From assembly GCA_026388255.1 (NCBI GenBank), contig JAPLKC010000083.1:1-64000 (forward strand): a DNA stretch of 64,000 nucleotides, written 5' to 3'. The DNA comes from Pseudomonadota bacterium. Lineage in GTDB: Bacteria > Desulfobacterota > Syntrophorhabdia > Syntrophorhabdales > Syntrophorhabdaceae. Below the pieces are notes generated by a model, which was not told where the DNA came from, did not search any database, and saw only the letters and a list, made by a program, of their open reading frames with translations. Below are positions 49,767 through 64,000 of the stretch, piece by piece (the stretch's first letter is position 1; each line of letters opens with the position of its first letter). A program made the position numbers and the translations under genes.

Positions 49767-50933
49767 TTATATCTTCTTTTGATTAACAACCATTGTGAAG
49801 AGCAGCGCTACACCTATGAGTACCGATGCAGCGGTTATGAAAGAAAAATAGTATCCAAAACTGCCTGCGATAATACCTGCGGCAAGAGGACCCGTAGTAT
49901 GGCCGATATCCATAATTGATCCGAGTATTCCCATTGCAGAACCCCGTGCAGACCGGCTTAAATCTGCTATAAATGCCGATGTAGCCGAGGTTAGCGTCGA
50001 CATGCTGATTCCAAATAAAATACTAAGTACAACAAAAGGTATAAAAGAACCGAATAGTGCAAATCCCCCTATGGACATTGCACCGAGAAGGGCTCCAATG
50101 ATGATCTGGGGCGGCCTGCCATGTCTGTCGGAAATGCGGCCCATCAGCGGTTTTGTAAGGGCGAGGCTGATAACCTGCGCAGAAAGGCATATGCCTGTTT
50201 CGTAGGCATTCAGGCCGCTTTTAAGTGCATAAAGCGGGAGAAAGGTTTCGAAAGTGCCATACGCAAAAAGCACCGCCGCCTCAGCGCTGCTTGTTACAAG
50301 GATGACGGGGTTCGATATAACGCCCGTTAATGATTTAATAGTTTCAGTCCAGTTCCTAAGATGCTGGATGTTTTTTTCAGGCTCAGGTGTTTTTAGGATA
50401 AAGATGAGAGCAAGGATGCCTGCTGCACTACACACCATATAAACAACGTCATAGCTCAATGACGGGTTAAAGACCAGAAACCCGATAAGCGCACCGCCTG
50501 CAAGAGGAGCCATAAACCGGCCAAGAAGGGTCGCCGTTGAGAACCAACCCATTTTCTCCCCACGCTCGATATGAAAAAGGTCGGCAACATAGGCCAGCGC
50601 TACAGGTCCAAAGGCAGCGGTTGCAAGCCCGTGATAAAACCTTATAAGTGCAAGCTGCCAGAGTTTTGTAACAAAAAAATAGAGGAAGGGCGCTGTCGCA
50701 AAGACAATCGCCGAGCATATAAGTATCTTCCTTCTACCCAGCCTGTCGGAGAACATGCCCACAGGTATGCTGAACAGCACACCGGTAAAGGCCGAGACAG
50801 CGGCAATACTGCCTACGGCTGCAGGCTCTGCGCCGAGATATGATGCAAAAAGCGGAAGAACAGGACTTTTGGCAATTGTAGAGCTGAATATTGCGCAAAA
50901 ACCGGCGATGCAAAGCAATAGAAAGGGGCTCAT
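49767..50933 (-). CDS. MFS transporter
   Basis: A 388-residue permease with 12 predicted membrane helices. The MFS signature between helices 2 and 3 is GMFSDRLGRRK, and the equivalent in the second half is GRISDRHGRPP. It resembles drug/metabolite exporters. It is the last gene of the left arm of the metal-chelate block, 56 bases after the binding-protein gene, so it may export a small chelator made or modified by this locus. That role is inferred from position alone. Base composition is clearly richer in G+C than genes to the left. Confidence 0.85.
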   Translation of the reverse strand: MSPFLLLCIAGFCAIFSSTIAKSPVLPLFASYLGAEPAAVGSIAAVSAFTGVLFSIPVGMFSDRLGRRKILICSAIVFATAPFLYFFVTKLWQLALIRFYHGLATAAFGPVALAYVADLFHIERGEKMGWFSTATLLGRFMAPLAGGALIGFLVFNPSLSYDVVYMVCSAAGILALIFILKTPEPEKNIQHLRNWTETIKSLTGVISNPVILVTSSAEAAVLFAYGTFETFLPLYALKSGLNAYETGICLSAQVISLALTKPLMGRISDRHGRPPQIIIGALLGAMSIGGFALFGSFIPFVVLSILFGISMSTLTSATSAFIADLSRSARGSAMGILGSIMDIGHTTGPLAAGIIAGSFGYYFSFITAASVLIGVALLFTMVVNQKKI

Positions 50934-50989
50934 GTATTCACCGCGTTAATTTAACATATGTCTGAACAAATTTAAATACTTAACCCCAG

Positions 50990-52096
50990 TTAAGGGCTGG
51001 TGAGTTTGAATTTTTCCAAACCTGCCGGAGGTGTGTGTTTCAGAATGCTGTTCACGTCATCGGTGCTCAGCACGTGGTGGTAAAATCGTGCATAGTAACT
51101 TTTAAGTTCTCCTTCAAGGTCAAGATTATGAAATTTATCAGGATGAAGGATTTTGGCAAGCCACATGGCGAAAAGAAAAACCTCGCTGCTTCCGTGGCCC
51201 CAATGGAAGACTCCTTCTGGACAGGTATATACCTTTTCTTCTTTTACCGCCTTAATTACCTGCCAGCGTGGATCAGCGTCTATTGCGTTTGCGGAGGTAA
51301 GACCACCCACGACAATTACATCAGGATTCCACGCTATAATCTGCTCCATTGAAGCATCGGCAAAGTAGGTATCCAGATCCTTAGACGCAAAGGTGCCTCC
51401 TGCCATCTCCACAAGCCAGTGGCCCAGAGAATAGCGGCCCTGAGTGCCGAAAATATTTCTGCCGGCAATATAATAGACTTTCGGTCTTTTGCTCTCAGGA
51501 ATCCGGGACGTCACAGTCAGTAATCTCTTTACGCGCTTGTCGTAGTAATCGCAATAAGCATCGGCAATCTTTTTGGCCTTTTCACCGAGCACCTCCCCGT
51601 AAAAACGGATATCCTCCTTGTAGCCTTGTATGAACTGCGCCATAGTCTTCGGCATCTGTCTGCCTGAAGTGGGGCAGACCACAGGGATGCCTGCGGCTGA
51701 CATTTTTTCTATCTGTTGGCTCATGTTCCAGTAGAAAACGAGATCGATCCCCATGGAAAGGATTTTTTCTACATCAGGATCAGAGTAGGAGGGCATGATT
51801 TGCATTGTCTTCAGAGCAGGGTTCAGTTTTTGTGACCATGGCGGTTGCTTGATGGACATGACGGCTACCTTGTCTGCTGAACCCAGCAGAAAAACCTTTT
51901 CATAAGAAGGTCCGAAAAAGCAGGCAATCCGTTGAGGGTCTACCGGTATCTTGACGGTCCTCCCGATCCGGTCAATAACTGTTTTTGTCTTTTCAGCAGC
52001 AGCACCTTCAGAGCTTGAAAACAAACCGAGCAAAACAAAGAATATGCCGATAAGGCAACTGGAAATGATTCTCCACATAAATTTATCTCTTATCAC
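50990..52096 (-). CDS. ABC transporter periplasmic binding protein (PF01497, Fe/B12-type)
   Basis: A 368-residue exported protein: signal peptide to about SEGAAA, then TKTVIDRIGRTVKIPVDPQRIACF, the standard opening of siderophore/cobalamin binding proteins, and GIDLVFYW, WNPDVIVVGG and DPRWQVIKAVKEEKVYTCPEG. It is about 100 residues longer than BtuF. It delivers a metal chelate to the permease encoded two genes upstream. Its ATG overlaps the stop of the methyltransferase gene by 4 bases. Confidence 0.88.
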   Translation of the reverse strand: MIRDKFMWRIISSCLIGIFFVLLGLFSSSEGAAAEKTKTVIDRIGRTVKIPVDPQRIACFFGPSYEKVFLLGSADKVAVMSIKQPPWSQKLNPALKTMQIMPSYSDPDVEKILSMGIDLVFYWNMSQQIEKMSAAGIPVVCPTSGRQMPKTMAQFIQGYKEDIRFYGEVLGEKAKKIADAYCDYYDKRVKRLLTVTSRIPESKRPKVYYIAGRNIFGTQGRYSLGHWLVEMAGGTFASKDLDTYFADASMEQIIAWNPDVIVVGGLTSANAIDADPRWQVIKAVKEEKVYTCPEGVFHWGHGSSEVFLFAMWLAKILHPDKFHNLDLEGELKSYYARFYHHVLSTDDVNSILKHTPPAGLEKFKLTSP

Positions 52097-52755
52097 CTTT
52101 CTTTCTCCACATAGATCCAGAACCCCGAATCGTCATTAATAATCTCATATCGGTTAAAACCGGCTTTCGCCATAACCCCCTCAAAATAAGGAATATTATT
52201 TTTCCGGTACTTGAATTTCGGTCTTTTATCCCATCCCTTATCGATGGCGCTCATCCTTCTTCCTATCTCTTCACTCAGTTCTGTCGAACCGGCGCCGCCT
52301 CCTACATAGCCCTTGCCACCCGGTTTGAGAACTCTTCTGATCTCACGAAAAGCCGTGGGTTTGTTTTTCCAGAAGCGCATGGAGCCTCTGCTCACCACGA
52401 GCGTTGCAGCGTCATCCTGAAAGGGCATACGATGCACATCACCCACGATAGGCGTAATTCGCTCTGTCAGCCCGGCTGCAATAATGTTTTCTTTAGCCAT
52501 GGGGGAAATCTGCGAAGAAAAATCCATGGCGTATGTAACAAACCTGGTTCTTTTTGTTACGGCTACAGCAAGATTTGCCGGACCGCTGCCCACATCTATG
52601 CACAGACCGTCCTCAATGGCACAGCGCTCTATAATCCGATCTGCTATGACAGGGTATATGGGGGCGAAGACCTCGTTGGCAATACGGGTGTATTCCTGAG
52701 CCCTTTCAGCATCAAATTTTTTGTAACCCCTGGAATTCCAGGCTATTTTACTCAT
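52093..52755 (-). CDS. Class I SAM-dependent methyltransferase inside the ABC operon
   Basis: A 220-residue Rossmann-fold methyltransferase. Motif I is CIDVGSGPANLAVAV, the acidic residue is in YAMDFSSQ, the motif II region is VGDVHRMPFQDDAATLVVSRGSM, and motif III follows RVLKPGGKGYVGGG. The start at 52755 has AAAGGAGAAAT directly before it; a longer frame overlaps the permease gene. It is wedged between permease and binding protein with tight spacing, so its product should act on the imported ligand or its chelator. Confidence 0.88.
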   Translation of the reverse strand: MSKIAWNSRGYKKFDAERAQEYTRIANEVFAPIYPVIADRIIERCAIEDGLCIDVGSGPANLAVAVTKRTRFVTYAMDFSSQISPMAKENIIAAGLTERITPIVGDVHRMPFQDDAATLVVSRGSMRFWKNKPTAFREIRRVLKPGGKGYVGGGAGSTELSEEIGRRMSAIDKGWDKRPKFKYRKNNIPYFEGVMAKAGFNRYEIINDDSGFWIYVEKER

Positions 52756-52796
52756 ATTTCTCCTTTTCTGCGTTTTGTAAACACTTGTGCAGTATC

Positions 52797-53816
52797 TCAG
52801 TTCTGCCATTCCCCTTTACGTTCATTGGTAATGAGCAAATAGGCAAAAAAAGGGGCGCCGATAAGAGAAGTTAAAATGCCTACCGGTATTTCCCCGCCTG
52901 GCAATACTCGGGCCAGCGTGTCCATAACGAGCATAAATATGCCGCCCGAAAGCGCCGCAAAGGGGATGAGTGCATCATGGTCAGAACCAACGATGATCCT
53001 CGCCATATGGGGAACCACAAGTCCAACCCAGCCGATGTTTCCGCACACCGACACCGATGCTGCAACTATGAGCGTGGTTATGAGGATATAGATAAACCTG
53101 GCGCGAGGTACGTCAATACCGAGGGTTGTGGCATCTTCATCGCCCATGGCCATTGGATTGAGCCACCAGCGGAGCACATAGATAAAAATCAATCCGAGGA
53201 TGATAATGGAAGAAGCCCGTATGGCATCTGCCCAAACGACGCTGTTGAAACTCCCCATTGTCCAGAATACGATTGCAGGCAATTGTTGATAGGGGTCTGC
53301 CCTGTATTTGAGAAAGGAGACGCCAGCCGTGAAGAGGGCGGAAATGATGACGCCCGCAAGGACAAGACTCGTCACGGAATTGCCGCCTCGACGGCCGATC
53401 TGGTAGGCAAGGAATACGGCGATAAGCCCCCAGAGAAATGCCGACGATCCCACTGCCCAGGCTGAACCGCCGGCAAAGAGGATAGCCAGCGTAGCGCCAA
53501 AGCTCGCCCCTGAACTCACACCGAGGATACTCGGAGAAACAAGAGGGTTCCGGAAAAGGCCCTGGAAAACTGCCCCGGAAACCGAGAGCGCCGCCCCTAC
53601 CAATACGGCAACAATTACCCGTGGAAGACGCACTGAGAAAAGAACCATGGAGGGAGTCAACAGGGTTCCCTTCCCATCACCTCCTTTCAGCGCAGAGAAT
53701 ACAACCTGAATGAGGGTGTCAAGGCCAATCCGGTAACGGCCCAGCGTCAGAGCTGTAATGGCAACCCCCAAAAGGATCAACACTGCAAGTAACATGGGAA
53801 TCTTATGATGTCTCAT
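52797..53816 (-). CDS. ABC transporter permease, FecCD/BtuC family
   Basis: A 339-residue permease with about ten helices. Family segments: RLPRVIVAVLVGAALSVSGAVFQGLFRNPLVSPSILGVSSGA, WTMGSFNSVVWAD, GNIGWVGLVVPHMARIIVGSDHDALIPF and the C-terminal GEIPVGILTSLIGAPFFAYLL. Type II importer for iron-siderophore, heme or cobalamin-like ligands. 8 bases separate it from the ATPase gene. Confidence 0.94.
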   Translation of the reverse strand: MRHHKIPMLLAVLILLGVAITALTLGRYRIGLDTLIQVVFSALKGGDGKGTLLTPSMVLFSVRLPRVIVAVLVGAALSVSGAVFQGLFRNPLVSPSILGVSSGASFGATLAILFAGGSAWAVGSSAFLWGLIAVFLAYQIGRRGGNSVTSLVLAGVIISALFTAGVSFLKYRADPYQQLPAIVFWTMGSFNSVVWADAIRASSIIILGLIFIYVLRWWLNPMAMGDEDATTLGIDVPRARFIYILITTLIVAASVSVCGNIGWVGLVVPHMARIIVGSDHDALIPFAALSGGIFMLVMDTLARVLPGGEIPVGILTSLIGAPFFAYLLITNERKGEWQN

Positions 53817-53824
53817 ACCTTATC

Positions 53825-54637
53825 TCATCTTCGCACCGGGACCACAACCGATGTCCCCTCCGACGTGTTTTCTACCCGAACCTTCATTCCATAGACCTGT
53901 TCCAATGTATCTTGTTCGAAGACAGCATCTTTCGATCCCTCCTTATAAAGCCTTCCAGCCTTAAGCATCACCATACGGTCACAGTATCGTGCTGCCAGGT
54001 TAGGGTCATGGAGACTGACCAGCGTGGTCAGGTGCTTTTTCTTCGTTACATCCCGTATAACATCCATAAGCATGAACTGATTTTTGAAATCAAGGTGAGA
54101 TGTGGGTTCATCGAGAAGGAGGATTTGGGTATCCTGGAAGAGTGCCCGCGCCAGAAGAACAAGCTGTTTCTCTCCTCCACTCAATTCATTAAAAAAACGT
54201 TCCGCAAGGGCGGCAATACCAAGTCCGTCCATTGCGGCTTCAGCTTCGGAATAGTCCCGTGCCGATGGAAGCCTGAATCGAGTCAATCTTGCCGCTCTAC
54301 CCATGACCACCATCTGCAGGGCTGTGAAAGAGAAAACAACCGTAGTTTGCTGGGGCACAACAGCCATCAGTCTCGCAACATCACGCCTCCCCAGCCGCCT
54401 CACACTATTGCCTTCTACTTGAACAGAACCGTCTTTTGGAGTAAGAACCCCGTCAATACACTTGAGAAGAGTAGTCTTTCCTGATGCATTAGGGCCAAGG
54501 AGCCCACAAATTGTATCTCTCTCAACGGAAAAGGTGATATCTTGCAGGACAGGTCTTTGCCCATAACCGAAATTTAGTTTAATGACAGACAGGACCGGTT
54601 CGATCCGGTCTCCCTTTTCAATGGGATATGTATTCAT
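53825..54637 (-). CDS. ABC transporter ATPase, FepC/BtuD family
   Basis: A 270-residue ATPase. Walker A GPNASGKTT, Q-loop VVPQQT, signature LSGGEKQ, Walker B ILLLDEPTSHLD and switch His in VSLHDPN. First gene of the left unit; its start is 86 bases from the central inverted repeat. Works with the permease and binding protein downstream. Confidence 0.95.
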   Translation of the reverse strand: MNTYPIEKGDRIEPVLSVIKLNFGYGQRPVLQDITFSVERDTICGLLGPNASGKTTLLKCIDGVLTPKDGSVQVEGNSVRRLGRRDVARLMAVVPQQTTVVFSFTALQMVVMGRAARLTRFRLPSARDYSEAEAAMDGLGIAALAERFFNELSGGEKQLVLLARALFQDTQILLLDEPTSHLDFKNQFMLMDVIRDVTKKKHLTTLVSLHDPNLAARYCDRMVMLKAGRLYKEGSKDAVFEQDTLEQVYGMKVRVENTSEGTSVVVPVRR

Positions 54638-54906
54638 GACTTAATATATCACCTATTGAAACCACTAAGGAACAAACATTATATAATAGTACAATATTTA
54701 ACTAATAATAATATATTCAAACCAATATACTTGACATGGCACGTTTCTTATGTCAAGTATATTTTCCAAACCTGCATCATCGCCAGGCCTGCTCTGTTTG
54801 TATTAAGTTTCACGGAAAAACAAAGGGGTTGCCGCATGGAAAGAATAGGCTTCTTTAACGGGATTGCCCGGAAAGAACGATAACATAAAATATTTTGGGG
54901 TGAAAA
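54638..54906. other. Divergent control region of the two ABC units
   Basis: 269 bases. Contains the 14-bp inverted repeat (54724-54763), a TATAAT at 54682-54687, and a small GC hairpin CGGG-ATTG-CCCG at 54859-54870 in the leader of the right unit. I see no known riboswitch with confidence. Confidence 0.5.
54724..54763. promoter_or_regulatory. Perfect 14-bp inverted repeat, likely shared operator
   Basis: AATATACTTGACAT (54724-54737), 12 bases, ATGTCAAGTATATT (54750-54763). Each arm carries a TTGACA in opposite directions, so a bound regulator could block both divergent promoters at once. It does not match NikR or ModE sites as I know them. Confidence 0.65.
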
Positions 54907-55773
54907 ATGACGATAATGGAAGAAACTCTCGATTTGCTCAAAACGTTCTATAAGAAGAATGGACTTGATTCTGCTCAATTGTTTCGGATCGGCCTCAGAT
55001 CCGGCTGGACAGCTATTTTAGGCACAGGAAAACTATGCGGAACCGCCTTCAGGTTTTCTGGCCCTCATAACGTATACCAGACAACAGAGCCGGACATTGA
55101 GGTGATCGATAAGCTTGCAGGCAGGGACCTTATGGATATTGCCGGTAAGTATTTAAACTCTGATATCATGCAGATGAGGTCCATTGCCGTCGCAGCAATT
55201 AGCGCCCTTTCACAGCCCTTTCTTACCGTTGAGTCCCTGGCGGAAAGAAGATTCCAGGTTGAAGATGACCGGGATTACTTGTATGGCATCCTGAAGCCTG
55301 ATGATGTAGTCACGCTTATAGGGTATGGAGGCATGACTCAGAATATCCTGGGAAGATGCAAAGAACTGCATATTGCGGACATGAGACCCGTCCACTCGCT
55401 CCCTGCCATGTTAATGAGGGAAGATGTTAAAGATAATCATGAGCCTGTTTTTATTCATGGGCCAGATGAAGATGAAGCACTGCTCAATAAGTCTGATGTC
55501 GTTGTTATGACAGCCTCCAGCCTTGTTAATGGTACATTTGATGATCTGATATGTTACGCAGCCACGGCGAGGGTCAAATGCCTCTACGGAGCCAGTGCAT
55601 CCATTATTCCCGATGTGCTGATCAAGCATGGTGTGAGTTTCATTATGTCGCACCATGTAAGAGACCCCGACAAATTTATTGAATCCATGGACAGTGATAC
55701 AAATATGGAACAGTCGATCAGGAATTATCAGCCCTATCAGGTTATTAGCGCTGCAAAAGGAGACCCTAAATGA
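54907..55773 (+). CDS. DUF364 protein (putative heavy-metal chelation family), copy 1
   Basis: A 288-residue cytoplasmic protein with an N-terminal DUF4213 domain (SAQLFRIGLRSGWTAILGT...GTAFRF) and C-terminal DUF364 Rossmann-like domain (DVVTLIGYGGMTQNI, DVVVMTASSLVNGTFDDL, CLYGASASIIPDVLIKHG). The family has been suggested to chelate heavy metals or bind a SAM-like ligand, without proof. It is the first gene of the right unit and overlaps the binding-protein gene by 4 bases. GGGGTG precedes the ATG. Confidence 0.88.
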   Translation: MTIMEETLDLLKTFYKKNGLDSAQLFRIGLRSGWTAILGTGKLCGTAFRFSGPHNVYQTTEPDIEVIDKLAGRDLMDIAGKYLNSDIMQMRSIAVAAISALSQPFLTVESLAERRFQVEDDRDYLYGILKPDDVVTLIGYGGMTQNILGRCKELHIADMRPVHSLPAMLMREDVKDNHEPVFIHGPDEDEALLNKSDVVVMTASSLVNGTFDDLICYAATARVKCLYGASASIIPDVLIKHGVSFIMSHHVRDPDKFIESMDSDTNMEQSIRNYQPYQVISAAKGDPK

Positions 55774-56864
55774 ACTCAAGAATTACCGTATACTTTACTG
55801 TAACCGTTGTTTTTATATTCTCTATTCTCGCAGGGCAGGCCGCTGCAAAATCCCAGGTTGTCCGTACGATCACCGATATGACGGGCAGGCAGATCAAAGT
55901 GCCTGATCCGCTCACCAGAGTAGCTCTCTTCGGTGGACCAACGGGACAGATCGCCTATATACTGGGCGCCAGAAACCAGTTATGTGCCGTAACAAGTACA
56001 CTCAGAGGATCGGACCTGATTCTTGCCTTTGACCCATCCATTCAAAAACTGCCTGCCCCCCGAAGCACAAGCGGTCACGTAAACATCGAGGAACTGCTCG
56101 CAGCCGATGCGCAGCTTGTTATTGCCGGTACTTTCGACGGAACTATTGTGGAGAAAAAGACCCGTATACCCGTTGCATATACTGAAAGCAACATGAACCA
56201 TGGCCTCGATCTCTTAAAGAGAGAGATGCGTTTCTACGCCGATGTTTTCCAAAAACAGGACCGTGCAGAGAAATATATTGTTTACCTGGAGAAGACGATA
56301 GCTTTTGTCAGGTCTCGTACTAAGGATATCCCCCAGTCAGAACGAAAGACACTCTTTAACGGATACGGCCCCAACCATCTCGTCACCCTTGGCGGCGATA
56401 CCTTCATGCATGAGCGTATTGAGACAGCCGGCTGCATTGATGCCGCAGCATCCATCAGCTCTGCCGGAGTCAAGGAAGGGCTCCACTCAGGACTCGCTGA
56501 GATGTCCATGGAAAAAATACTGGGCTGGAATCCCGATATTCTTGTCATTGATTCAGGAGACCCGGCTGATATATACAAGAATCCCAAATGGAAAAGTATC
56601 AAGGCTGTGCAGAATAAAAAGGTCTACAAACAGCCTGTGGGCGTCTTTATATGGGATCGTCCTACTGCTGAGGCGGCTGTACTGCACCCTTTATGGCTTG
56701 CAAAAACAGCATACCCGGAACACTTTAAGGATGTGAATCTCGTAAAGGAGGTGCAGCGGTTCTACAGGGAAATAATGGGCTTTAATCTGACTCGCGACAT
56801 GGCTGGAGCAGTCCTTGCTGGAAAGCTGGGTATCAGGTTTGTAGGCAACTCAGGGAGAAAATAG
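55770..56864 (+). CDS. ABC transporter periplasmic binding protein, right unit
   Basis: A 364-residue exported protein: signal peptide ending near GQAAA, then RTITDMTGRQIKVPDPLTRVALFGGP, EELLAADAQLVIAG, WNPDILVIDSGDP and WKSIKAVQNKKVYKQPVG. Same PF01497 family and size class as the left-unit protein but clearly divergent. It starts within the stop of the DUF364 gene (ATGA). The sequence segment NMNHGLDLL may line the ligand site; the ligand is unknown. Confidence 0.88.
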   Translation: MNSRITVYFTVTVVFIFSILAGQAAAKSQVVRTITDMTGRQIKVPDPLTRVALFGGPTGQIAYILGARNQLCAVTSTLRGSDLILAFDPSIQKLPAPRSTSGHVNIEELLAADAQLVIAGTFDGTIVEKKTRIPVAYTESNMNHGLDLLKREMRFYADVFQKQDRAEKYIVYLEKTIAFVRSRTKDIPQSERKTLFNGYGPNHLVTLGGDTFMHERIETAGCIDAAASISSAGVKEGLHSGLAEMSMEKILGWNPDILVIDSGDPADIYKNPKWKSIKAVQNKKVYKQPVGVFIWDRPTAEAAVLHPLWLAKTAYPEHFKDVNLVKEVQRFYREIMGFNLTRDMAGAVLAGKLGIRFVGNSGRK

Positions 56865-56873
56865 GTACTGTAA

Positions 56874-57905
56874 GTGGAATCCAATAAAAAAACCGGCATT
56901 CATCTTGATCCGGTGAAACTTCAGATTTTCCTGGTGGTGCTGCTTGCGGGTGTTTCCATAACAGCGCTCATGTCAGGTCAATTGAGGATTCATCCCTATG
57001 AAGTTGTCCGTATCCTTCTGTCAGGGGTTTTCCCGCTCGAGAAAACCTGGAGTCCAACCCTCGAATCAGTACTCTTCGATGTCCGTCTCCCCAGACTTCT
57101 CGCCGGTCTCCTTGTCGGCGCGGGACTTTCCATTTCCGGTGCTGCATTTCAGGGTCTCTTTCGCAATCCCCTTGTTTCGCCTCATATCCTTGGTGTCTCA
57201 GCAGGAGCAGGTCTTGGCGCAGCCCTGGCTATCCTCTTTTTCGGCAATATATTTATGGTTCAACTTCTTTCCTTTCTTTTCGGGCTTCTCGCTGTGCTCA
57301 TGACTTATAGCCTAAGCAGGGTTTATCGGACAACGCCCGTTTTAATGCTCGTTCTCTCGGGCATGATAGTGGGGGCTCTCTTTTCGGCTGCCACCTCGCT
57401 TCTCAAGTATATCGCCGATCCGGTGAATCAGATGCCTTCCATCGTCTTCTGGATGTTGGGTTCGTTGAACAACGCATCCAACAAGGATATGATTATTGCA
57501 GGGCCCGTTATGCTGGCAGGCATTATCGTCCTTCTTCTTATCCGCTGGCGCATCAACCTCCTTGCCATGGGTGAGGAGGAAGCGCGCTCTCTTGGTATAG
57601 ACACAGGCCGCATAAGGGCTGTTATTATCGTCTGCGCCACTGTCATCTCAGCCTCTGCCGTATCTATCTCCGGCATCATAGGCTGGATCGGGCTTGTCAT
57701 CCCCCACATCGGAAGAATACTCGTCGGCCCCGATAACAAAAGGCTCCTCCCTGTGGCGACCCTCATCGGCGCCATCTACCTTGTCGTGGTGGACACTATC
57801 GCCCGCACCGCAATAGAATCGGAGATTCCCATAGGCATCCTTACCGCCATGGTAGGAGCGCCTATCTTTGCCTATCTGCTGCGTAAGAACAGGTCAGGGT
57901 GGTAA
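56874..57905 (+). CDS. ABC transporter permease, FecCD/BtuC family, right unit
   Basis: A 343-residue permease. Family segments RLPRLLAGLLVGAGLSISGAAFQGLFRNPLVSPHILGVSAGAG, WMLGSLNNASNKD, GIIGWIGLVIPHIGRILVGPDNKRLLP and EIPIGILTAMVGAPIFAYLL. Closely similar to the left-unit permease, which suggests duplication of the transporter. GTG start at 56874. The ATPase gene follows after 3 bases. Confidence 0.94.
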   Translation: MESNKKTGIHLDPVKLQIFLVVLLAGVSITALMSGQLRIHPYEVVRILLSGVFPLEKTWSPTLESVLFDVRLPRLLAGLLVGAGLSISGAAFQGLFRNPLVSPHILGVSAGAGLGAALAILFFGNIFMVQLLSFLFGLLAVLMTYSLSRVYRTTPVLMLVLSGMIVGALFSAATSLLKYIADPVNQMPSIVFWMLGSLNNASNKDMIIAGPVMLAGIIVLLLIRWRINLLAMGEEEARSLGIDTGRIRAVIIVCATVISASAVSISGIIGWIGLVIPHIGRILVGPDNKRLLPVATLIGAIYLVVVDTIARTAIESEIPIGILTAMVGAPIFAYLLRKNRSGW

Positions 57906-57908
57906 CAT

Positions 57909-58775
57909 ATGCAAGATAGTCTTCGTATTGAAGGGCTTTCTTTCTCATACAGTGGTAATCTGGCCGATGCAGTATTCCGGGAGGTAAATTTATTCGTCGA
58001 ACCAGGGAGTGTCTTTTGCCTCCTCGGCCCAAACGGAACAGGAAAGTCTACCCTCCTCAAATGCATCAGCGGACTGCTCTACCCCGGAAAAGGAAGGGTC
58101 CTGGTGCACGGCAGAGATATTTCTTTGCTCCGGGCTGCGGATGTAGCTCGGGAGCTTGGTTATGTGCCCCAGAGTCAGGTATCCGCCTTTCCTTTTCTTG
58201 TTGAAGACATCGTCGTCATGGGCCGGGCACCCCACCTCAATGTGTTCGCATCGCCCAAACCCCGCGACGTACAGATCGCCTACGACTCCATGGAGACCGT
58301 CGGCATTGTCTCTCTCGCCAAAAGACCCTGCACAAACCTGAGTGGAGGGGAATGGCAGCTCACTCTCATCGCCCGAGCCCTCGCACAGGAACCGCGCATT
58401 ATGGTCCTCGACGAACCTACATCTCATCTCGATATGGGCAATCAAATGAAGATTCTTCGTGTTGTTCAGGGGCTGGCAGAAAGAGGATTGGCCATCATCA
58501 TGGCCTCTCATTTCCCGGATCACGCCTTTTTACTGGCAAGTCAAGTGGCTATTCTTAATTATGGCCGCATCGTGCAACAGGGATCACCGGAAGAAGTTAT
58601 CACCGACGATAATATGTGCGACACTTACGGTGTCGACGTAAAGGTTCTCTACGTCGGAGAGGGTGTTGACCGCAAGGCATGTTTTCCTTCTCACCGTTCA
58701 GGCCTGCAACCCTCAACAGATCGAGAGCCAAATACACAAAATATCCTAAGTAAATCACATAAGGAGCGTCAATAA
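57909..58775 (+). CDS. ABC transporter ATPase, FepC/BtuD family, right unit
   Basis: A 288-residue ATPase. Walker A GPNGTGKSTL, Q-loop YVPQSQ, signature LSGGEWQ, Walker B IMVLDEPTSHLD and switch His in MASHFPDH (the usual Asp after His is Phe). A C-terminal tail of about 35 extra residues follows the nucleotide-binding domain. Its TAA overlaps the ATG of the deaminase gene, so the two are translated together. Confidence 0.95.
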   Translation: MQDSLRIEGLSFSYSGNLADAVFREVNLFVEPGSVFCLLGPNGTGKSTLLKCISGLLYPGKGRVLVHGRDISLLRAADVARELGYVPQSQVSAFPFLVEDIVVMGRAPHLNVFASPKPRDVQIAYDSMETVGIVSLAKRPCTNLSGGEWQLTLIARALAQEPRIMVLDEPTSHLDMGNQMKILRVVQGLAERGLAIIMASHFPDHAFLLASQVAILNYGRIVQQGSPEEVITDDNMCDTYGVDVKVLYVGEGVDRKACFPSHRSGLQPSTDREPNTQNILSKSHKERQ

Positions 58776-59461
58776 TGAATCATTTTCGGCCAACTATACC
58801 TTCTTCCAGGCCCCTGATAGTATTTCTTGTCGTTGTCATCTCACTTGCCTCCGTTGCTTGCGGCTTCGCCCAGGACAACAGACGGAAGGCGTGGCTTGCC
58901 GAACTCGGTGAGATTGAAAAACAGGTGAATACCTTTGTACCTGATCCGGCTCATCCCGATGATCCTTTTATTTTGGTTACCCTGAAAGAAGCAATTGAGG
59001 GCAGCAGGGAAGAGAACGGCGGTATAGGCGCGTGTCTTGTCCGGGAGGCCACCGGCGAGATTGTGGAACGGGGCCACAACCGCCAATTTGAACCATATTA
59101 CCGTAGCGACCTACATGCTGAAATGGATCTGCTAACCCGCTATGAAGACAGGATCAAAGCCATAAGACCAGGAGGTAGGGGAAACCCATCCACTGCAGAA
59201 ACACGGAAAATGGCAGGACTTGTCCTTTACACCTCTGTCGAACCCTGCCCCATGTGTCTAACCCGCATTATCAATACCGGCCTGAAAAAAGTCCTCCATG
59301 CAGCGCCTGATGAGACAGGTGGTATGGCGCAAAGAATCTCCGGCTTACCTCCTTTTTGGCAGGACATGACCAAGGGTAACGTTTATCAGGCAGCAAACTG
59401 CTCGCCTGAACTTGTGGCCATCGCCAAGCGTCTCTTTCGTCCTATGGGTGGTAGAAGGTAG
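58775..59461 (+). CDS. Exported cytidine/guanine-deaminase-fold enzyme
   Basis: A 228-residue protein with a signal peptide (hydrophobic LIVFLVVVISLASVACGFA, cut before QDN; Cys29 could also be a poor lipobox). The mature part has the deaminase zinc set: H114-A-E116 in LHAEMDLL, C158 and C161 in EPCPMCLTRI. The fold and PCxxC spacing are those of TadA/guanine deaminases, normally cytoplasmic. Export is unusual. Coupled by overlap to the ABC ATPase and followed by the TonB receptor, so it probably acts on the imported molecule in the periplasm. Confidence 0.82.
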   Translation: MNHFRPTIPSSRPLIVFLVVVISLASVACGFAQDNRRKAWLAELGEIEKQVNTFVPDPAHPDDPFILVTLKEAIEGSREENGGIGACLVREATGEIVERGHNRQFEPYYRSDLHAEMDLLTRYEDRIKAIRPGGRGNPSTAETRKMAGLVLYTSVEPCPMCLTRIINTGLKKVLHAAPDETGGMAQRISGLPPFWQDMTKGNVYQAANCSPELVAIAKRLFRPMGGRR

Positions 59462-59609
59462 TATTGGTTATTTTATATCTTCATTAGTTATATTAATATA
59501 CTATTGTTACTATTTTGCTTGATTATGACATATAATTCGGTATAAAAATATTATTTGGAAATTGCCGATCTTATCAAGTTCGGACATTCAATTATTTCTG
59601 GGAGGATTT

Positions 59610-61748
59610 ATGAAACGTATCTGCATGATATTGGTGGCCCTGCTGATTTTCGCCCTGGGCATGCCCTCCGCTTATGCCGAAGAGCCTAAAGCGCCGGACC
59701 AGGCAAAGGCTCAACAGGCCGTTCCGGCCAAAACCCCACAAAAGGATTATCAACCCTTCAGTCTTGGCGAACTCTATGTGACGGGAGACAAGCTTCCAGT
59801 AGCACAGGAGGTTACTCAGACAACTGAGATTACGGCCGAGGATATTACGGCAACAAACAGCAAGACCGTTGCTGAGGCACTATCTCATGCACCTGGAATT
59901 TCAGTCACTACGGGCCGTAAAAACTCTCCTTATGTAAACATTCATGGGATCGACCAGAGTAAAACGCTGGTGCTTATCGACGGCGTACCTTACTACGAGA
60001 CGTCCTACGGAAGCCTTGACCTCAACAGCATCCCCGCAGACAACATTGCCAAAATTGAGATACAAAAGGGTGTATCCTCGGTTCTCAACGGACCCAACGG
60101 GCTTGCTGGAGTTATCAATATTATCACCAAGAAAGCCACGGAACGCCCTGCTGTCGGCGCTCTGTTAGAGGCGGGAGACTACGAGTCTCGCCGTTTTACC
60201 TTCTGGCACGGGATGAAGGTAAAAAAAGTCAATTACTGGCTAAGCTATGATCATCAGGAATCTAGAGGGTGGTTGCTATCACGTGATTTCGATCCGCGTT
60301 TGACCAGGCTTGTTTACAGAACCCCCAACTCGACTCCATCCTACGTCCTCGAAAGTGGCGGCAAGAGAAATAATTCATATTCCAAAATGGACGGTTTATG
60401 GGCTAAGGTAGGCGTTGAACCTACACCCGGATCAGAGTACTATATCAATTTTCACTATATCCAGAGAGACCGGGAAGCGCCCGCCTCTCTTCTCGATGAT
60501 CAGAACAGGATTACTCTGCCACGTCCCGCGTTCTCGCAGTTGTGGCAGATGCCCAAGTACGACAATTGGGGCGTTGACCTCAGTGGACAACAAAAACTTG
60601 GTGACAGAGTCACTCTCAAGGGGAAACTCTTCTATCACAGCCATGTTGATGACCTTGTATCACTTAAGACTCCAGACTATACAGGTTACCTTTCCACAAG
60701 CCGCTATAAGGACAATATGATTGGCGGATCTCTTGCATCCGATATCAAACTGGCAGAGATAGATACCCTGAAGTTAGCCTTCAACTATCGCCGGGACACA
60801 CATGAAGAACGTTCTGATACCTATCTTCCTTTTCAGGAAGCCGTTTCATATACAGGCTCATTTGGTATCGAGAATGAACTAAAACCTATAAAAAACCTCT
60901 CCCTTGTCGGCGGAGCCAGTTATGATTGGTTTAATGTCTCAAAATCCACCCAGAATGTGACAAGCACAGTGGCGGCAACACAAGGAGTCCTAACAAGCGT
61001 TAAGAGCCTTAAAAGACCTGATGACGACATGCTCAATCCTATGCTCGGGGCTACCTACACCTTCGATGAAGGCACCAAGATCTTTGCCTCCTGGGCCCGA
61101 AAGGTTCGTTTCCCCACCCTGTCTACCCTATATTCTTCAACCGCAGGCAACCCTGATCTGAGGCCGGAAAAAAGTATGAACTATGTTGTCGGAGCCTCGC
61201 GAGGTATTACCAAATATGCCCGTGGAGAAGCTTCCTTCTTTGTGCACGACATCGAAGACTACATATCCCGTGATGGCCCAAGCACAATCGCGATATATCG
61301 GAACTATGGAAAAATATTCATGTATGGTGCAGAACTCTCTGCCGAGGTATTCCCAGTTAAAGACCTCACCATTAAGGCATCCTATACTTACAATAACGCA
61401 ACAGACAAAAGTACGGGAACTGTAACCGACAGGGTAACATACGTCCCGACACACAAAGCTGATTTGTCAGTTAAATACCTCATTCCCGTCATAGCAACCA
61501 ATATAGATTTAACAGGCACATATGTGGGCTATATGTGGGGGCAGTTACCGACAGCCTCCAGTCCGTTGACATCAGCAGATGGAACAGGTGACTACTTTAT
61601 CGCAGACATCCGGCTTTCCAGAAATATCTATAAAAATCTTGAAGCCTATTTTGTAGCAAAAAACATATTCGACAGGAACTACGACCAGCAGATAGGTTTT
61701 CCGGCCCCCGGAAGGAACCTCTTCATTGGTTTAAAGGCAAGCTACTAA
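59610..61748 (+). CDS. TonB-dependent outer-membrane receptor
   Basis: A 712-residue receptor. Signal peptide to about AYA, a short Ala/Pro/Gln-rich stretch, then LGELYVTGD as TonB-box region. The plug has TVAEALSHAPGISV, VLIDGVPYYE and IEIQKGVSSVLNGPNGLAGVINIITKK. The 22-strand barrel closes with GRNLFIGLKASY, with a terminal aromatic as usual. It brings a large chelate across the outer membrane for the adjacent importer. GGGAGGA suits ATG 59610; a longer frame begins at 59562. A strong terminator follows. Confidence 0.95.
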   Translation: MKRICMILVALLIFALGMPSAYAEEPKAPDQAKAQQAVPAKTPQKDYQPFSLGELYVTGDKLPVAQEVTQTTEITAEDITATNSKTVAEALSHAPGISVTTGRKNSPYVNIHGIDQSKTLVLIDGVPYYETSYGSLDLNSIPADNIAKIEIQKGVSSVLNGPNGLAGVINIITKKATERPAVGALLEAGDYESRRFTFWHGMKVKKVNYWLSYDHQESRGWLLSRDFDPRLTRLVYRTPNSTPSYVLESGGKRNNSYSKMDGLWAKVGVEPTPGSEYYINFHYIQRDREAPASLLDDQNRITLPRPAFSQLWQMPKYDNWGVDLSGQQKLGDRVTLKGKLFYHSHVDDLVSLKTPDYTGYLSTSRYKDNMIGGSLASDIKLAEIDTLKLAFNYRRDTHEERSDTYLPFQEAVSYTGSFGIENELKPIKNLSLVGGASYDWFNVSKSTQNVTSTVAATQGVLTSVKSLKRPDDDMLNPMLGATYTFDEGTKIFASWARKVRFPTLSTLYSSTAGNPDLRPEKSMNYVVGASRGITKYARGEASFFVHDIEDYISRDGPSTIAIYRNYGKIFMYGAELSAEVFPVKDLTIKASYTYNNATDKSTGTVTDRVTYVPTHKADLSVKYLIPVIATNIDLTGTYVGYMWGQLPTASSPLTSADGTGDYFIADIRLSRNIYKNLEAYFVAKNIFDRNYDQQIGFPAPGRNLFIGLKASY

Positions 61749-61797
61749 GTAAAAGACTACAAGGAAGAACAGATGGGTGGGTACGTCTGACCCTGAC

Positions 61798-61833
61798 AAA
61801 AGAAGAGGCTGCCATTCGGCAGCCTCTTCTTTT
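61798..61833. terminator. Strong intrinsic terminator after the TonB receptor
   Basis: AAAAGAAGAGGCTGCC (61798-61813), loop ATTC, GGCAGCCTCTTCTTTT (61818-61833). Perfect 16-bp stem, symmetrical. Confidence 0.92.
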
Positions 61834-61936
61834 CTTTCTATAACCTTGACCGGCTCTATATGTATGCGGGCAGTTAACCTTGAACAGGGAAAAGTCTGGT
61901 TCACGAATGTGACATGCAAATTTTAAAAGGCACAAT

Positions 61937-62749
61937 ATGATAATAACGGAAACGATAAGCATTATTGAAGGACTATACGGAGAGAGCTTAAAACGTATAA
62001 CTATTGAGAGAATCGTAATGGGGATATTTTTTTCCGGCGTTAAACTGTCCAATGGATGCGGAGGGGTTTCTTATACGCCCGTCTCCGAGATTCATGATGA
62101 TCTATGCCATGCAAGCCCGATATTCACGAAAGACAGACCTGTTATGCTTAAGGGCATGTCTGCTTACGAAGTCCTGAATAATTTGAGTGATACCCCGATG
62201 CACAAAACAATAAAAATTGTTGTATTGAACGCACTATCCAGCTTTTTCCTTACCAGTGAAAGATATTTTATCATCGAAGACAGCGATGTTATGGACAGCA
62301 TAAATCTGGACGTTACAAAAAGGATCGGTATGGTAGGGGCATTCCCCCCTTTTCTCGAGCGCCTAAAAAAGGTTGGTAATATTCAACTCAACGTAATTGA
62401 AAGAAGAAGAGAGAGCCTGATAGGTGACAATGCAAAGTATTTTATACCAGCAGAAGATACGCAGTCAGTAATCCCTCTTTGTGATACGGTAATCATTACA
62501 GGGGCCTCTATCGCTAATGGAACCATAGATGAGCTTCTGAGTTATGTAAGATCAGATGCACAGGTGATAGTTACAGGACCTACGGCAAGTTTTCTGCCTG
62601 ATGCCTTTTTCAAAAGAAACGTTAACGTTGTGAGCGGTGTATTGGTAACAAGGCCTGAGGAAGCCCTTGACATGCTTTCAGAGGGTGTAGGCGCATACCA
62701 CCTCTTTAAAAAATGTGTGAAGAAGATAAACATATTTGACAGGGTGTAA
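61937..62749 (+). CDS. DUF364 protein, copy 2
   Basis: A 270-residue homologue of the DUF364 gene at the start of the right unit, with the same two-part plan: ERIVMGIFFSGVKLSNGCGGVSY at the N-terminus and KRIGMVGAFPPFLERL, DTVIITGASIANGTIDELL, VIVTGPTASFLPDAFFKRNV at the C-terminus. It keeps a Cys in SNGCGG that copy 1 lacks. It lies beyond the terminator, in lower-G+C sequence, with FmdE and a methyltransferase downstream. TAACCTTGA occurs twice (61841, 61875) in its upstream region. Confidence 0.85.
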   Translation: MIITETISIIEGLYGESLKRITIERIVMGIFFSGVKLSNGCGGVSYTPVSEIHDDLCHASPIFTKDRPVMLKGMSAYEVLNNLSDTPMHKTIKIVVLNALSSFFLTSERYFIIEDSDVMDSINLDVTKRIGMVGAFPPFLERLKKVGNIQLNVIERRRESLIGDNAKYFIPAEDTQSVIPLCDTVIITGASIANGTIDELLSYVRSDAQVIVTGPTASFLPDAFFKRNVNVVSGVLVTRPEEALDMLSEGVGAYHLFKKCVKKINIFDRV

Positions 62750-62790
62750 CTGAAGATGGAGCAACCATATATAAAAAGGAGACATACTCT

Positions 62791-63390
62791 ATGGATACAG
62801 ACAATCTTGATTTGGAAATATGCCTTGAAGAGGCAAAGGCGTTTCATGGCGATTTTTGCGCAGGGATTGCAATCGGTACAAGAATGTCAATTCTCGGGCT
62901 CAAAGCAATAGGTATAGACGACCCAAAAGGGAAAGACAGAAAGGATATTATTGTGTTTGCCGAAACAGACAGGTGTGTGACGGATGCAATCCTGGCGACA
63001 ACCGGCTGCCATCCGGGCAAACGGACTATGAAGATATTTGATTACGGCAAGATGGCTGCTACATTTGTAAATCTGAAGACAGGCAAAGCGGTTCGGGTTT
63101 TCTTGAAAAATAAAGACGGCAATAGGAAGGTTACACGCGAAGAGCTTGAAAAATCGTCTGATCCAAATGCCTACGTAACGATGCCGGAAGAAGATCTTTT
63201 TAACATCGTTCAAGTATCTGTAGATCTGAAACCGGAGGATATGCCGGGCAAACCTCTCCAGATTGTGACCTGTTCCTCCTGCGGAGAGCGTATTATGGAC
63301 AAGAGGGAAGTATACAGAGACGGCAGTATTTTATGCAGACCCTGTGCAGAGGATAAACGTTACTATACATTAATTAACCAAGGTCAGTGA
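62791..63390 (+). CDS. FmdE-family protein with C-terminal zinc finger
   Basis: A 199-residue FmdE/Tra-1-type protein. The core has FHGDFCAGIAIGTRMS (His19, Cys23), ETDRCVTDAILATTGCHPGKRT and KIFDYGKMAATF. The C-terminal treble-clef zinc finger has C161, C164, C182 and C185 (CSSC...CRPC). FmdE was named for its gene's link to molybdenum formylmethanofuran dehydrogenase in methanogens; in anaerobic bacteria relatives sit with DUF364 and ABC importers. A role in metal or cofactor handling is inferred. AAAAGGAG precedes the ATG. Confidence 0.88.
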   Translation: MDTDNLDLEICLEEAKAFHGDFCAGIAIGTRMSILGLKAIGIDDPKGKDRKDIIVFAETDRCVTDAILATTGCHPGKRTMKIFDYGKMAATFVNLKTGKAVRVFLKNKDGNRKVTREELEKSSDPNAYVTMPEEDLFNIVQVSVDLKPEDMPGKPLQIVTCSSCGERIMDKREVYRDGSILCRPCAEDKRYYTLINQGQ

Positions 63391-63436
63391 AACAATAAAA
63401 TATCCTTAAGAATTTATATTTTGAGGTAACAGTGTT

Positions 63437-64000
63437 ATGAATTTTAAAACAATTGACTGGAATGACGCATGGAAAGAGGCGAGGGCTAAATGTAACTTCC
63501 AGGAGCGGGACAGCGCTTTCTGGAACAAAAGGGCACCGGATTTTGCTGAAATTTCAATGAAAACAGGATATGCCGAGGCATTTCTGAAAATCATGAATCC
63601 AAAAAAAAATTGGAGCATTTTTGATATGGCCTGTGGCGCCGGCACGCTTGCCATTCCTTTTGCAAGACATGTTAAATCCGTTACAGCAGTCGATTTTTCG
63701 GAGAAAATGCTGGAGATTCTCCAGGAACAATGTATTCAGGTCGGGATCGCCAATGTCAGGACAGTCAAGGCAAGCTGGGAAGATAACTGGAGCAAAGCCG
63801 GTATAGGGCTTCATGACGTTGCCATAGCTTCGCGTTCACTTGTAGTGCATGATCTCCGGCATGGTATTACAAAATTGAATAACATCGCACGAAAACGGGT
63901 GTATATCTCCACAATTGTAGATGACGGTCCCCATGACAGGCACATATTTGAAGCTGTCGGCAGAGAGTTTAATGCGGGACCCGACTACATATACAATTAC
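63437..64000 (+). CDS. SAM-dependent methyltransferase, 5' part (runs off window)
   Basis: 188 codons are visible with no stop before the right edge. Class I methyltransferase: motif I IFDMACGAGTLAIPFA, the acidic end of strand 2 in VTAVDFSEKML, then VKASWEDNW. An N-terminal helix region (FKTIDWNDAWKEARAK) resembles methyltransferases found beside siderophore-type ABC importers. ATG 63437 follows TTGAGGTAACAGTGTT. It is 46 bases after fmdE, likely the same transcript, and parallels the methyltransferase in the left unit. Confidence 0.85.
   Translation, partial: MNFKTIDWNDAWKEARAKCNFQERDSAFWNKRAPDFAEISMKTGYAEAFLKIMNPKKNWSIFDMACGAGTLAIPFARHVKSVTAVDFSEKMLEILQEQCIQVGIANVRTVKASWEDNWSKAGIGLHDVAIASRSLVVHDLRHGITKLNNIARKRVYISTIVDDGPHDRHIFEAVGREFNAGPDYIYNY

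Follow-up and report, generated by a model that had tools for sequence, protein, structure and literature searches.

What does the island of transport and enzyme genes that begins at position 49,767 of this Syntrophorhabdaceae contig bring into the cell? The stretch analyzed here (the window) comprises 64,000 nucleotides, positions 1-64000 of contig C83, from a 3.83 Mb genome in 147 contigs that is 98% complete, and its last part carries two ATP-binding cassette (ABC) importers beside a TonB-dependent outer-membrane receptor and an exported deaminase. Judged from genomic context, the island is probably a TonB-dependent acquisition system for group-6 metals (tungstate and/or molybdate) with two MolBC-type importers. 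The ligand is provisionally assigned as tungstate/molybdate, as oxyanion or complex, because relatives join the same receptor and importer genes to TupABC, WtpA, ModABC, MOT1, a molybdenum storage protein, MoeA or formate dehydrogenase. An initial annotation had proposed the uptake of a metal chelate or cofactor and had left the ligand unnamed; the comparative context supports a metal-related import locus and now offers a provisional ligand.

All 14 genes named in that annotation (importers, receptor, two DUF364 proteins, FmdE, methyltransferases, deaminase and a major facilitator superfamily (MFS) transporter) were found by gene and domain searches at or near the coordinates given for them, between 49767 and 64000, with the domains ascribed to them. 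The genes are spaced as in an operon, and those of the pairs DUF364a/SBP2, ATP2/DEAM and MT1/SBP1 overlap by 1 bp or 4 bp. The island reaches past the window end to about 79.4 kb on the same contig, where it is covered by locus L003 (contig position = L003 position + 62999). Its GC content is 0.465 over 49767-79400 vs. 0.403 upstream, and the genes before 49.7 kb, read from their sequences, are ordinary (pheS/pheT, thrS, groEL, htpG and similar).

Importers, deaminase and outer-membrane receptor

The window contains two full importer sets back to back, each with an FecCD permease, an ABC ATPase and a Peripla_BP_2 binding protein, followed by the deaminase and receptor genes. Identities are given to Deltaproteobacteria bacterium UBA2221 (G039), a member of the same order but another family, and to a member of the same family (G004).

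50990..52096, minus strand: SBP1, Peripla_BP_2 binding protein of importer 1 (domain search)
52797..53816, minus strand: PERM1, FecCD permease of importer 1; best Protein Data Bank (PDB) match MolB (HI1471); 70% identity to G039
53825..54637, minus strand: ATP1, ABC ATPase of importer 1; Walker and signature motifs in the sequence; 64% identity to G039
55770..56864, plus strand: SBP2, Peripla_BP_2 binding protein of importer 2; 67% identity to G039
56874..57905, plus strand: PERM2, FecCD permease of importer 2; 78% identity to G039 and 43% to the G004 operon copy
57909..58775, plus strand: ATP2, ABC ATPase of importer 2; 66% identity to G039; G004 homologue overlaps moeA by 4 bp
58775..59461, plus strand: DEAM, exported CDA-fold deaminase (E=7.9e-12); zinc motifs HAE and PCPMC kept; N-terminal signal sequence
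59610..61748, plus strand: TonB-dependent outer-membrane receptor; plug and barrel domains, signal peptide; 58% identity to G039

The FecCD domain was matched at E=4.4e-88 among the window permeases and the two Peripla_BP_2 domains at E=2.7e-23 and 3.6e-20. MolB topped the solved-structure matches of both permeases, with leads of 37 and 52 bits (for PERM2, 250.6 bits with FhuB next at 198.3). MolA/HI1472 ranked third for SBP1 (E=2e-20) and second for SBP2 (E=1.1e-23), and the chains ranking above it are structural-genomics entries whose titles name no ligand. In MolBC-A, a type II importer, the binding protein takes molybdate and tungstate as ligands (PMC4031551). From this resemblance and the operon partners in relatives, the importers most likely carry tungstate or molybdate, either free or in a complex.

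The receptor gene probably starts at 59610, not at 59562 where the open frame begins, because the signal peptide MKRICMILVALLIFALGMPSAYA begins at 59610. With its plug, barrel and signal peptide, and with TonB, ExbB and ExbD genes in the same island, the protein is a general TonB-dependent transporter; it scored below the NCBIfam equivalog or subfamily cut-offs (148 bits vs. 317, 141.8 vs. 223.5 and 120.9 vs. 599.7). The use of a TonB receptor would imply a ligand whose size or scarcity puts it beyond the reach of porins.

The deaminase resembles the TadA/guanine/cytosine deaminase kind. An identity as the tRNA adenosine deaminase TadA was rejected on a score of 23.9 bits against an equivalog cut-off of 150 and on the N-terminal signal sequence. 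An AlphaFold model (pLDDT 54, with only two sequences behind it) was too poor for a fold search.

The downstream island and its counterparts in related genomes

Beyond the window the island continues with an APC permease, an exported protein that joins a SUOX-like (Oxidored_molyb) region to a TP_methylase domain, a third DUF364 protein and an exported metallophosphoesterase, whose gene overlaps the third DUF364 gene by 4 bp. Further downstream lie a second SUOX/TP_methylase protein (CSECH motif), a radical S-adenosylmethionine (SAM) gene, its 387-amino-acid partner, a SUOX-only protein (CGECH), and the TonB, ExbB and ExbD genes, about 16 kb downstream of the receptor. The two fusion proteins lie at the following contig positions.

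C83 65746-67587 (L003:2747-4588): exported SUOX-like + TP_methylase protein
C83 69601-71352 (L003:6602-8353): exported SUOX-like + TP_methylase protein

The SUOX-TP_methylase family was matched in 23 of the 395 genomes that form our phylum sample (about 6%), and class-level searches added more. A CxxCH haem site is present in 20/24 aligned members, and the GDP motif of the TP_methylase region is kept in at least 95% of 21 sequences. Because this motif is kept in a protein that carries an N-terminal signal sequence, the supply of SAM is a puzzle; by position alone, the APC permease is a candidate supplier. An AlphaFold model of the fusion protein reached a pLDDT of 39, again with only two sequences behind it, and was too poor for a fold search.

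The module is conserved in relatives, and there it is linked to genes for molybdenum/tungsten (Mo/W) transport, storage and cofactor synthesis, as seen when neighborhoods were annotated by BLAST against reference proteins. The contig of UBA2221 keeps TonB, the APC permease, two SUOX-TP_methylase genes, the receptor, a close orthologue of the deaminase, ATP2, PERM2 and SBP2 and, divergently, ATP1, PERM1, MT1 and SBP1, the last broken in two by a frame break. Eleven orthologue pairs, the exported deaminase among them, share 38-78% identity. The arrangement is more than chance, since a genome from another family has orthologues in matching gene arrangement, with 54-78% identity for the window genes compared. 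Directly past the UBA2221 cluster are a MOT1-family molybdate transporter (PF16983, E=1.9e-55), the decayed remnant of an importer and a protein homologous to the beta subunit of the molybdenum storage protein (E=2.6e-67 to 2ogx_B). The source genome (G000) has an orthologue of this storage protein (79%) beside TupABC-like genes on another contig. The remnant between the MOT1 and storage-protein genes (L025:5491-6315) derives from a binding protein/FecCD permease and the 387-amino-acid family.

Several further neighborhoods carry Mo/W genes. In G014, of the same family, a same-strand run comprises the receptor, SUOX-TP_methylase, APC permease, TonB, ExbB, ExbD, two TupA-like proteins, TupB and TupC, with an HTH_17/PBP_like regulator divergent from it. 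An apparent operon in G004 contains radical SAM, a 379-amino-acid protein, receptor, MT2, PERM2, ATP2, MoeA (domains MoeA_N and MoCF_biosynth) and a binding protein. G361 and G221 have a SUOX protein, WtpA, receptor, EF-hand-type protein, ExbB, TonB, a SUOX-like protein and the deaminase; WtpA, which sits between the SUOX protein and the receptor, scored above its cut-off (E=1.5e-126, tested for G361). The G171 locus holds receptor, SUOX-TP_methylase, TonB, ExbB, ExbD, FmdE-like, TupA-like and formate-dehydrogenase-like genes. The module adjoins a regulator and TupABC in G229, the same kind of regulator in G231 and ModABC in G352, and G395 has a receptor/ExbBD/TonB/importer cluster with formate dehydrogenase, a phosphoesterase (57%) and DUF364. 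Across loci the genes that recur as a core are those for the receptor, SUOX-TP_methylase and APC permease, frequently accompanied by ExbB, ExbD and TonB; receptor homologues adjoin the SUOX-TP_methylase genes in most loci, and the APC permease is likewise near in most.

The neighborhood search found the exported deaminase kept beside the same importers or receptors in G039, G265, G170, G361 and G221, in agreement with its grouping with these transporters in the initial annotation. Its distribution is narrow. Searches of one congener and twelve other genera of the family gave no orthologue, just weak general-deaminase matches; the phylum sample gave orthologues in G361, G221, G265 and G170 and more distant ones in two other genomes; a genome-collection scan with the deaminase found UBA2221 only, and a plasmid search only a distant Deinococcus deaminase. 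The locus is a coherent island with a patchy distribution and is without counterpart in the one congener searched.

Some neighbors of the module deserve mention in their own right. The 387-amino-acid protein and its AmmeMemoRadiSam-like radical SAM partner (L003:10751-11914 with L003:11887-12894) recur as a pair in G000, G265, G170 and G004, with FecCD or receptor genes nearby in all four; the 387-amino-acid family is without a Pfam, NCBIfam or convincing PDB match. An exported EF-hand/DUF6802-like protein with weak lanmodulin similarity lies beside ExbB in three module loci (L064:15390-17339, L076:6665-8503 and L101:1137-3038). At L143:13781-16930 a formate dehydrogenase alpha subunit occupies two reading frames, possibly split at a selenocysteine TGA.

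Accessory genes of the window

The remaining features of the island within the window are as follows.

49767..50933, minus strand: MFS transporter of 388 amino acids (MFS domain E=6.7e-55); possible exporter
52093..52809, minus strand: MT1, class I SAM methyltransferase (domain search); G039 orthologue in the same place, 54% identity
54907..55773, plus strand: DUF364a, divergent DUF364 protein; DUF364 above cut-off, DUF4213 below
61805..61826, plus strand: terminator-like inverted repeat GAGGCTGCCA-TT-CGGCAGCCTC, 3' of the receptor gene
61937..62749, plus strand: DUF364b, full DUF4213-DUF364 protein (domain search)
62791..63390, plus strand: FmdE domain (PF02663, E=2.6e-31, 108.9 bits vs. a gathering cut-off of 22.9) with a C-terminal DksA/TraR zinc finger
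63437..64000, plus strand: MT2, class I SAM methyltransferase truncated at the window end (full end at contig 64258); 50% identity to a gene in the G004 receptor-importer-MoeA operon

The terminator-like hairpin at 61805 suggests that DUF364b, FmdE and MT2 form a transcription unit of their own. The MFS protein gave weak matches, far under cut-off, to the metallophore exporters BcbE and CntE, and no counterpart of its gene was found in the G039 cluster.

The two window proteins matched DUF364 (PF04016) at E=1.7e-20 and 9.3e-41, and the three proteins of the island scored 73.5, 139.3 and 133.7 bits against a gathering cut-off of 23. The genome context of DUF364 in the literature includes transport of tungstate and molybdate (PMC2954201). 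The initial annotation had implied that DUF364 would be conserved beside the importers, which the comparison did not bear out: a search of the other genomes of the phylum sample at E<=1e-12 gave no homologue of DUF364a, and the G039 and G004 clusters have no DUF364 gene. The only recurring DUF364 linkage is with the phosphoesterase, a pair found again in G395 near the TonB/FecCD cluster and formate dehydrogenase. No formylmethanofuran dehydrogenase operon genes were seen around FmdE in the island. DUF364 and FmdE were rejected as defining parts of the system and are accessory to the source genome's copy.

Among other genome-wide checks, the source genome has eight AOR-family matches, and presence of the family does not split genomes with and without the module (41/44 have it). 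ModA gave one marginal match in the source genome (71 bits) vs. a strong one in the congener G001 (220 bits). The island may replace ModABC in the source genome; the ModA pattern across relatives is mixed and so was not used as evidence.

Two further observations concern other parts of the window. Positions 1-501 encode a protein of short tandem repeats (GWTTDDKE-type units) truncated by the window start. Putative B12-binding radical SAM proteins of similar appearance lie about 25 kb or less from the deaminase loci of the source genome (37233-38786) and G170 (L070:2426-3952), which may be coincidence.

Candidate ligands and comparison with known systems

From gene content and context we infer the ligand, the direction of transport, the order of steps and the role of each enzyme, including those of the deaminase, methyltransferases, DUF364, FmdE, radical SAM, APC and TP_methylase proteins. 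The receptor (59610-61748), energized by the downstream TonB-ExbB-ExbD, would move the ligand, probably a complex that exceeds the size limit of porins or a form whose supply is too low for them, into the periplasm. There the exported deaminase, the c-haem SUOX-like/tetrapyrrole-methylase proteins and the metallophosphoesterase may process it. SBP1-PERM1-ATP1 and SBP2-PERM2-ATP2, of the type II MolBC-A kind, would then move the metal or complex inward, and the cytosolic DUF364, FmdE, methyltransferase and radical SAM proteins may handle the ligand or pass the metal to cofactor synthesis. The ligand may be deaminated outside the cell and methylated within it, as the initial annotation first proposed. 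Where TupABC, WtpA or ModABC is the partner of the module, the oxyanion must be available in the periplasm; with FecCD importers as partner the cargo could be either an oxyanion, as in MolA, or a complex.

Strict Mo/W markers (TupA, ModA, WtpA, MOT1, storage protein and FmdE) were present in 6/16 SUOX-TP_methylase loci for which about 10 kb or more of sequence was available vs. 0/20 random 20-kb controls (Fisher p=0.004). Similar loci were reduced manually to a single one per genus, and several marker references stem from the loci tested, so the p-values serve only as a guide. Without the window locus the count was 5/15 (p=0.009), and with the regulator counted as a marker it was 7/16 vs. 2/20 (p=0.026). 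Several points weigh against a group-6 metal as cargo. The controls were at arbitrary positions in three genomes only (G361, G315 and G171), several marker references were taken from the target loci, which makes the test partly circular, and 10/16 loci had no strict marker in the stretch examined. The window has no Mo/W transporter of a named family, FmdE being the only direct Mo/W link there; the TupA-like proteins of relatives fall under the NCBIfam equivalog cut-off; and no shared operator motif was found among the divergent promoters. Permeases of the FecCD type from siderophore, haem and B12 systems are likewise close relatives of those in the island. The TP_methylase domain is closest to precorrin-4 methyltransferases (CobM/CbiF), and in G244/G286 the module lies near cobalamin genes.

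The last two points also favor uptake or remodeling of a corrinoid, haem or other tetrapyrrole, in which the receptor and two BtuC/HmuU-like importers would carry a cargo modified by the exported TP_methylase and the methyltransferases. Haemin and B12 are among the receptor's best general models, and haem-handling CcsA/ResB pairs stand beside the fusion genes in several genomes, a pairing that is accounted for by the CxxCH site of the exported protein. We regard this alternative as unlikely: both permeases fall far under the BtuC equivalog cut-offs (235 and 256 bits vs. 461; 200 and 208 vs. 334) and are nearer MolB than HmuU or BtuC. Rfam had no match in the window, hence no cobalamin riboswitch at the locus, and within the window and downstream island we saw no gene of cobalamin biosynthesis. 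In the window and in the G039, G014 and G004 clusters, genes for neither cobalamin nor haem biosynthesis were seen, whereas Tup, MoeA, MOT1 and storage-protein genes are present. Also improbable is a TonB route for an Mo/W organic cofactor or tetrapyrrole-type chelate modified in the periplasm, with the c-haem/SUOX-like/TP_methylase protein using SAM brought by the APC permease and the deaminase trimming the ligand before type II import.

We give a low probability to a ferric-siderophore system that merely lies near Mo/W genes in some genomes. Its receptor, two FecCD importers, MFS exporter and modifying enzymes would follow the generic FecCD layout, the receptor resembles the TonB-siderophore subfamily, although below its cut-off (141.8 bits vs. 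223.5), and the MFS protein weakly resembles metallophore exporters; no siderophore synthetase, ferric reductase or Fur-type genes were seen, however, and the operon-level linkage to tungstate/molybdate genes is repeated in independent families. Salvage of an intact metallopterin (a molybdo- or tungstopterin dinucleotide trimmed by deaminase and phosphoesterase, bound by SUOX-like domains and imported through FecCD for MoeA) would make use of a deaminase of this kind, the exported metallophosphoesterase and the MoeA of the G004 operon but is very improbable, as the TupABC and WtpA partners carry free oxyanion, the SUOX-like domains have no conserved Mo-ligating Cys and the deaminase is missing from most module copies.

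Iron complexes, haem, B12 and sugars are well-described cargoes of TonB-dependent transport. Neither molybdenum nor tungsten appears in a 2024 review of its substrates, and molybdophores do appear in the literature searched. Our search, which covered part of the literature and leaves an earlier description elsewhere possible, found no on-point report joining TonB with molybdate/tungstate, tungsten uptake with TonB, or DUF364 with FmdE. If the group-6 metal assignment is true, anaerobes rich in tungsten-type enzymes own a dedicated outer-membrane route for Mo/W, and the functions of DUF364, FmdE, the exported haem/methylase fusion and the radical SAM partner family become directly testable.

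Several parts of the island have known counterparts from which they depart. The DUF364 domain of Dhaf4260 (PDB 3l5o) is common to the three island proteins, of which DUF364a is strongly divergent and confined to the source genome in the sample. The downstream exported proteins share with CobM/CbiF the TP_methylase domain and its GDP motif but carry it as a fusion with SUOX-like regions that have a CxxCH haem site, away from cytosolic SAM. TonB receptors for siderophores, haem and B12 with FecCD/BtuCD importers have the same layout (receptor, TonB-ExbB-ExbD and type II importer), whereas the island receptor stays below the equivalog cut-offs and its relatives have Mo/W genes as neighbors. TupABC, WtpABC and ModABC are type I importers of a different fold; relatives carry them in apparent operons with this receptor module or adjacent to it (G014, G229, G361/G221, G171 and G352), and the window has FecCD importers in their place. 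MolBC-A (HI1470-1472) of Haemophilus influenzae, reported as a low-affinity system, likewise has an FecCD permease, ABC ATPase and Peripla_BP_2 protein; to this plan the island adds a second importer back to back with the first, a TonB receptor with its energy genes, methyltransferases and exported enzymes.

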